Below are positions 14,601 through 17,600 of a stretch of DNA of 64,000 bases, one piece after another. Positions within the stretch are counted from its first letter, which is position 1. The number at the start of each line of letters is the position of its first letter. The translations under genes were made by a program, and so were the position numbers. The notes below the pieces were generated by a model. That model had not been told where the DNA came from. It ran no database searches and was given only the letters and a program-made list of their open reading frames with translations. Source of the stretch: Pelecanus crispus (Eukaryota > Chordata > Aves > Pelecaniformes > Pelecanidae); assembly GCF_030463565.1 (NCBI RefSeq), contig NC_134656.1:2175001-2239000 (forward strand). Reading direction: 5' to 3'.

Positions 14601-17600
14601 CATGCTTGTGTCCAAATTGCAGATCCCTTTAGAAAATTGGGGTCTAGGCACTGCAGAGTTATATTAATTTGGAGCCAAGAAATGTAGACAGCAGATGGAG
14701 AAGTTCACAAAGTCTTTATTTCTAGCCTTCCTGTGTGCACACATGTGTTTATATATACTCTGCATTAAATGCTTTGTATAACTCTTAGAAAAAACCCTTT
14801 CCATATGAAGTCTGGGAAATATTTCCCCTGAGTCTTTTGCTAAACTCATCCCTGTTCTCTGCTTTATGGCACTGGTTACCATACCCAGTGTCCAAACTCG
14901 TAGCAGTTATTGGACTCTATATGATGCTGTTTAATTGGCAAGAAGAAGCATGTGAATGAAGAGGGGCAGGCAGAGCCCTGAGCTGAGAAGAGAAATGAAG
15001 CCTTGACTCTGGTGCTGCATGCTTTTAGGCCCTGCCAGATTGTTGGTCTGAGTAGAGCCACTTCTCATGGACACCAATATCTGATGACATTCAATTCTTG
15101 CCTGTATGTGTTTTGATTTCCACTATACCAAGAATATATTGGAGAACTGTATGTTTTGGGGGCCAGGTTCTTGTTAGTTTTGTCTAGCGCAGCCCATCTC
15201 CTAGCGAGGCAGAGGGCATAGACTGGCTGGATTGGTCTGGTTTCATCACTGCCCTTTTGAAAAGGCTCAAAGGGCAGCTAGAGCAAAGGCCAAGATGTCA
15301 TTTGATGGAAAGAGCATGTAAAGCAAAATGGCAAATTATCTAGATTTGTATCTGAGAAATACTGAGCCTGGGGACTCCTTGCGTGGTTGGAAGTCATTGA
15401 CCTCGCGTTTCTCTTGTCTTACAGATGACTATATTGCCATTGGCGCCGACTGTGAGCACATAGCAGCCCAGATTGAAGAATATATCCTTACAGTACGGGG
15501 CTTCCTCAAGAGCCTGCATGCCTCCAGGGCATGAAATTAATGCGCTTGGAGGAAAAATGGGACAGGCTTTCTTTGCGTAAATGTTCTGCTGCAACTCTGC
15601 TTGTCAGGGCTCTGAGGCTGGTTCCAGCCTTGCTTGGCTGAGTCCCGGGTCACTGGTGAAGCACCAGTGTGGTGCTGGGAGCTCAGGGCAGACCCCTTGC
15701 TGGTATGATGGTCATGGTTATTTCCTTCCTGTTCGCACTGTAATGGACAGTAACCCCCAGTTTTTCCTTCCCATAAAAATGCCATTTCCTGCTCTCAGCT
15801 CTGCTTCCAAATACATGCAATTTCCCTGTGCCTCCCTGTTGAGGAGAGTGTGCTGATATATGACAAAAGCAACCGGGGGATGGAGCAATGGGGATCCAGC
15901 TGCATCTCGATTTGAGATGAGCCAGGGGTTTGTTCGGTTTAGGGGCTGTGGGGTGGGAGATGCAGCTGGGCTCTCTTAGTGGAGGGTTTTGCGGCTACCT
16001 TGCTGAGAGAAAGAGCGGGTTGAAGAACCTAAGCATAACCAAAAATAAAGATTATTTCTGGCACAGTGAAAAAGCCAGAACTGAAAGCCCCTGACCTCTG
16101 GGATTGTATAAGCCTGCCCTCAAATCCAGCATTAACCTCCCAGAGCAAACACTGCCGCTGGGTCCCAACATGCTCATCTGTGTCCTGGCAGTGAGTAACG
16201 CTCCCCGCTATTCACATGTGGTGTAGAAAGTGCTTGGAGGCCTCGGGGTTGATTGCAGACTCCTTGACTGCCGTGCACGCATATACCAAGACGTCAAGAA
16301 CACCGACATGAAATACAAAAACCGAGTGAGGAGCCGCATCTCGAATCTGAAGGACTCCAAAAATCCTGAGCTGAAAAAGAACGTGCTGTGTGGGGCGATA
16401 ACCCCTGAGCAGATTGCGGTGATGACCTCAGAGGTGAGGAGGCCTGAGGAGTGGGGTTTGCTTCTTACAGGGGACAGGTCCTGTGGTTTAGCTTGAAGCA
16501 AGGGGCTGCTCTGCTGCCAGGGTTGCAGATTTCTCAGCAGCTGCTGCCAGGGTGGGTGTGGAGTGAGCTAGCAATGGGGTTTGCAATGTGGAGAGTAGTC
16601 TGTTGAGCCTTCAGATCATCACGGGGGCCCAGGTATGAACCAGAAACCAGGAATGAAAGGCTTTCTGTCTTAACACCCATCTGTTAGGCCACCCTGTCTT
16701 CTTGACTCTTTCCACTGTAGTAGGTGTGGTGGTAAAACTGGACAGATGTGATTTTACTGCTTTTTCTTTTTGAAAGGAAATGGCCAGTAACGAGCTGAAA
16801 GAGATCAGGAAAGCCATGACGAAAGAAGCAATCCGGGAGCATCAGATGGCCAAGACAGGAGGGACACAGACTGACCTTTTCACCTGTGGGAAATGCAAGA
16901 AGAAGAACTGCACCTACACCCAGGTTAGTCTTCCTGCTCCTGCAGCCTCTGCACAGGACATGATCCGTCACGGTCACGAGCTCTTACTGCTCTGTGACAG
17001 GCCCTGCAGCACAGCACAAATTTTGCCACTGGTGGAGAGAACCTGTTTGTACACTCGAGGCTCTCTAAAATGTGCTGCTTTTGCACAGTGGCTTTGCACG
17101 CGTTTCCCTGGAGCTTGTGTAACTTTTTTTGGCTCATTTGTACAAGAGCAGGGGTTGTGCGGCACCAAGGAAGCTTTCAAAAGTACAGTAGTGCTGCTTG
17201 CTGTGCCGCTTGGGAGAGCTGCACATTGGAAGCAGGTGCTGGGAATGTGGAGATTCAGACAAGAAAGGAGTGGGTAGAGGAGAGAGACTGCAGAAACCGG
17301 GGCAGGCACGTTGATGGCATTAAAAGTGCAAATTAAGAACGTAGATAAGCTGCGGCTGGACAAATCCCAGCTTATTTAAAATCAAACCGCATGAAACAGG
17401 TGAAACACAAGGAACAGCAAAGCAGTGATGTGAGCAGGCAGAGGGGATTTTTCTCCTCAATGGACAGCTGCTGGAAGCCTTGTGCATGACCAGTGCTTTT
17501 TAGCTCCCACGTTTGCGCCAGGCATCTGGAGATAAATGTGCCTTTGCTGTGAGTCAGTGTTTTAGAATGTGCAGATACCCAAAAAATGCACCAGCAACCA

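Follow-up and report, generated by a model that had tools for sequence, protein, structure and literature searches.

A U12-type AT-AC intron in TCEA2, shared by TCEA1 and TCEA3 and most likely older than their duplications

AT-AC introns of the TFIIS family appear in the older lists of U12-type introns, and Xenopus TFIIS.oA is an example in the lists of the 1990s. Introns of the U12 type carry a branch site, TCCTTRAC, about 10–16 nt from their 3' end, and their polypyrimidine tract is weak or absent. During their removal U11 binds the 5' donor, U12 binds the branch region, and U6atac later replaces U11 at the donor. According to Table 2 of PMC7367187, 18% of the U12-type introns of the chicken are of the AT-AC class, against 0.01% of its U2-type introns. 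The U12-type AT-AC intron of human SMYD2, of phase 1, is printed in the same paper as ATAAAT/ATATCCTTTA...CTTTCCTTGACT...AGCAC. The sixth intron of the TCEA2 gene described here resembled this printed example in donor core, branch core, termini and phase, and differed from it in belonging to another gene and in its donor ATATCCTTAC, which has A, not T, at position 9.

A paper naming a TCEA or TFIIS gene as a U12-intron gene was not found in searches of the main texts of the open full-text literature. No such gene was named in the passages of PMC8886746 and PMC7774950 that fell within this scope, and TCEA was absent from the main texts of PMC4506483 and PMC7367187. In the corresponding portions of PMC6201815 and PMC3695530 TFIIS occurred in the reference lists only, those of PMC8145808 named TCEAL9 only, and those of PMC12768974 were viral. 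A passage of PMC7469106 lists TCEA2 among aberrant splicing events in a comparison of SF3B1-mutant with wild-type MDS. TCEA2 intron 6 is ordinary for its class, which is well known and is described in PMC7367187.

The window, that is the whole stretch of 64,000 nucleotides analysed here, corresponded to C14:2175001-2239000, and the genome searched amounted to 1.31 Gb. The complete TFIIS architecture was present in the product of the gene, with an N-terminal TFIIS/Med26 bundle, a central domain and a C-terminal zinc ribbon (Pfam Med26 PF08711, TFIIS_M PF07500 and Zn_ribbon_TFIIS PF01096, all above cut-off). Residues 4–300 matched solved TCEA1 chains. In domain II the score was 200.9 bits to the TCEA2 chain 2lw4 (113 aa) versus 147.2 bits to the TCEA1 chain 3ndq (108 aa), the solved chains of both proteins being presumably human molecules. 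Elsewhere in the genome there was a TCEA1-like locus on contig C2 and a TCEA3 locus on C16, one N-terminal exon of the latter scoring 56.1 bits to TCEA3 (1wjt) versus 38.0 bits to the best TCEA1. The gene in the window was named TCEA2 because its domain II scored higher with TCEA2 than with TCEA1 and because the TCEA1-like and TCEA3 loci are separate from it. The features are collected in Table 1.

Table 1. Coordinates of the TCEA2 gene and of its sixth intron in the window, with the sixth introns of the two paralogues (a slash marks an exon-intron boundary).
Feature	Position	Strand	Description
TCEA2 coding region	2620..19601	+	10 coding exons, 300 aa; reading frame open through all junctions
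TCEA2 exons 1-5	2620-2688, 5443-5505, 6169-6274, 7751-7841, 13810-13943	+	coding parts; analysis confined to coding exons
TCEA2 exons 6-10	15425-15481, 16279-16433, 16777-16923, 18901-18972, 19593-19601	+	coding parts
TCEA2 exon 6	15425..15481	+	3' end ...CAG ATT GAA GAA T, phase 1
TCEA2 intron 6, U12-type AT-AC	15482..16278	+	797 nt, phase 1, splits codon 174
U12-type 5' splice site ATATCCTTAC	15482..15491	+	ATATCCTT = (A/G)TATCCTT consensus from first intron base
U12-type branch site TCCTTGAC	16261..16268	+	branch A 16267, 11 nt before last intron base
AC 3' splice site	16277..16278	+	intron 3' end ...TCCTTGACTGCCGTGCAC, final CAC
TCEA2 exon 7	16279..16433	+	begins GCATATACC, read GC ATA TAC CAA; Cys174 completed
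TCEA1 intron 6	C2		GAAGAAG/ATATCCTTTG...TTCCTTAAATCCAAAGCAC/CTATT, exon start CTATTTTTC; 994 nt, Ala codon
TCEA3 intron 6	C16		GAAGACC/ATATCCTTTG...TTCCTTGACGGACCCCAC/ATATC, exon start ATATCTTCC; 1002 nt, His codon

Elsewhere in the window, a long inverted repeat occupied positions 44741-46700 and contained two arrays of one 24-bp unit in opposite orientation (44861-45365, 21 copies; 46032-46562, 22 copies), with matching flanks and a GC-rich core of 592 nt. Its inner arms (45201-45402 and 45995-46196) measured 202 nt with 91% complementarity and its outer arms (44741-44878 and 46563-46700) 138 nt with 99%; a wider search for inverted repeats with arms of at least 170 nt returned the inner pair only. 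About 23 copies of the 35-bp unit GGGGACGCGACCCGGCGCCCCGTTAGCTCCTTTTT, with 88% matches, were found at 63136-63932. A degenerate GC-rich minisatellite of about 2.4 kb with units of the GGCACC/CCGGCA type covered 41313-43722, and the long open frames present there on both strands are probably not genes. Between positions 20000 and 64000, 20 of the 138 open frames of at least 110 aa yielded nothing above the Pfam cut-off and two weak matches beneath it; no neighbouring gene was identified from these 20 frames.

Eight of the nine introns between the coding exons of TCEA2 were of the GT-AG class, the sixth being the only AT-AC intron. The T at the end of exon 6 (position 15481, ...GAAGAAT) and the GC of exon 7 together form the codon of Cys174. 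When the intron was removed, the protein aligned without a gap over the junction with TCEA2 domain II (SAQIEECIFRDVGNTD) and with TCEA1 (GSQIEEAIYQEIRNTD), the junction counterparts in the solved chains being IEECIFRDV and IEEAIYQEI, respectively. When it was retained, conceptual translation gave 17 residues after IEE and then a stop. An unspliced TCEA2 message would thus be expected to encode no zinc ribbon and only the first part of the central domain. The 18 nt before the terminal AC were not exceptionally poor in pyrimidines: their fraction was 0.67, compared with 0.61–0.94 at the acceptors of the other eight introns, all GT-AG, introns 2 and 4 both standing at 0.61. A sequence-only reading had placed an AT-AC intron at 15482..16278 inside TCEA2, with a branch A 11 bases from its end, and had called it a textbook U12-type intron. 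The coordinates and signals were reproduced, and this description agrees with the donor and the branch site, with the dinucleotides at either end, with the phase and with the protein obtained on joining the exons. The same reading had taken Cys174 to be conserved; the residue is common to the solved TCEA2 chain, but it does not extend to the whole family, being replaced by Ala in TCEA1 and by His in TCEA3.

Motif counts were at chance level in the window, with two occurrences of RTATCCTT for 1.76 expected and three of TCCTTRAC for 3.57 expected, and for this reason the motifs alone were not taken as evidence; their placement and the paralogues were used instead. A donor at the one position dictated by the protein, combined with a branch match in about nine allowed offsets, gives a placement product of 3.5e-9, a rough figure that assumes independence and holds to an order of magnitude only. 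Nor is it a matter of chance placement that TCEA1 and TCEA3 have this donor at the identical codon, together with a branch element much like that of TCEA2. Duplex energies with the snRNAs of the genome singled out neither signal locally and were dropped as evidence for U11, U12 and U6atac alike. Between the donor and the 5' end of the U11 match six consecutive pairs were predicted, with an energy not unusual locally (about the 155th of 900 12-mers); it was -5.6 kcal/mol in TCEA2 versus -6.6 kcal/mol in TCEA1 and TCEA3, TCEA2 having one predicted pair fewer. For U6atac the six best duplexes listed did not include the donor, and for U12 the eight best listed did not include the branch site. In public collections, 6 viral and 22 prokaryote loci matched a degenerate pattern of exon 6 and donor. 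These were attributed to chance, since tblastn with the TCEA2 protein, at E up to 10, gave no match to any of the 28, all confirmed to be in the searched database.

All three TCEA genes of the genome (TCEA1, TCEA2 and TCEA3) were interrupted at one codon, in phase 1, by an AT-AC intron with a U12-type donor and a branch element 10–11 nt from its end. The sixth introns of TCEA1 and TCEA3 were like that of TCEA2 in position, phase, ATATCCTT donor, TTCCTTRA branch element and AC end; they were unlike it in length (994 and 1002 versus 797 nt), in having T at donor position 9, and in interrupting an Ala or a His codon instead of a Cys codon. The branch element of TCEA1, TTCCTTAAAT, is without the final C of TCCTTRAC. 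By inspection, introns 5, 7 and 8 were GT-AG in each of the three genes (9/9). An AT-AC intron at one codon and phase in all three paralogues argues that it is older than the TCEA1/2/3 duplications, which we consider the most likely history; its dating against the duplications in vertebrates is inferred. The sequence-only reading had supposed the intron to be probably ancestral and had suggested comparing its position and phase with TCEA1 and TCEA3; this comparison, carried out here, gave identical results in both genes and supports the supposition. We estimate at roughly 96% the probability that 15482-16278 is a U12-type AT-AC intron in TCEA2, of the TFIIS family, inherited from before the duplications that gave TCEA1, TCEA2 and TCEA3. 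The search of the genome for the central domain gave eight matches (12 candidates, all scored), among which no processed TCEA copy was seen. The sole match covering the domain in one piece, considered as such a copy, was rejected as a diverged TCEANC-like gene with 30.9% identity.

It is conceivable that TCEA2 alone gained its sixth intron, and the more distant genes with a central domain, which we take to be PHF3-like, DIDO1-like and TCEANC-like, are indeed uninterrupted at the corresponding point. However, TCEA1 and TCEA3 share the intron, which would then have had to arise three times independently at a single codon and in a single phase; this is so improbable that we give such a history hardly any weight. 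A conventional U2-type GT-AG intron used in place of the AT-AC intron was evaluated with two GT donors, in the interval from 45 nt upstream to 90 nt downstream of the end of exon 6, and eleven AG acceptors, between 90 nt upstream and 60 nt downstream of the start of exon 7. Six of the 22 pairings stayed in frame, one example joining a donor 11 nt downstream (ACA/GTACGG) to an AG located 20 nt into exon 7. None of these six yielded the family sequence IEExI[YF], and ATATCCTT and AC stand at the exact boundaries defined by the protein in both paralogues. The example and the GT-AG alternative in general are accordingly very improbable; the earlier statement that no GT-AG alternative restores the family sequence proved true of the 22 pairings, though six remain in frame, so that alternative U2-type use is conceivable.

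The boundaries could also be as described and the intron nevertheless be removed by the major spliceosome, given that U2-type AT-AC introns exist (0.01% of the U2-type introns in the chicken table of PMC7367187). Such an intron would not need the U12-type donor and branch element, which are kept in all three paralogues, and we judge this route to be about as improbable as the use of GT-AG boundaries.

Removal of the U12-type intron 6 by the minor spliceosome appears the probable route. This dependence of TCEA2 is proposed because of what is known of the class and because all four snRNA families specific to the minor spliceosome were present in the genome. Above the Rfam gathering score there was at least one match each for U12 (148.9 bits), U11 (105.4 bits) and U4atac (84.1 bits) and at least four for U6atac (best 128.4 bits), and the pairing segments of the snRNAs were present in these matches. 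The same Rfam searches found none of the four RNAs in 14 control genomes. Only the best U6atac match, on C9, ran directly into a T-run; the three on C6 were without it and may be pseudogenes. In the pathway that we propose, U11 would recognise the ATATCCTT donor of TCEA2 intron 6 and U12 its TCCTTGAC branch region, after which U6atac would take over the donor from U11. Attack by the branch A would follow, and exons 6 and 7 would be joined within codon 174.

It is possible, but unlikely, that the whole supply of TFIIS is gated by the minor spliceosome through intron 6 of TCEA1, TCEA2 and TCEA3. This hypothesis implies that slow removal of the intron would limit the rescue of stalled RNA polymerase II, that all three TFIIS proteins would fall together if minor splicing were lost, and that in disorders of the minor spliceosome the TFIIS made from all three genes should drop, with no compensating paralogue. 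It is made less likely by a passage of PMC6201815 in which the splicing of U12-type introns in human cells is reported to be efficient and co-transcriptional. For annotation, one would expect a gene finder restricted to GT-AG introns to disrupt all three TCEA genes at this one codon. As none of the three TCEA genes is without the minor intron, no backup would presumably exist among them if minor splicing failed.
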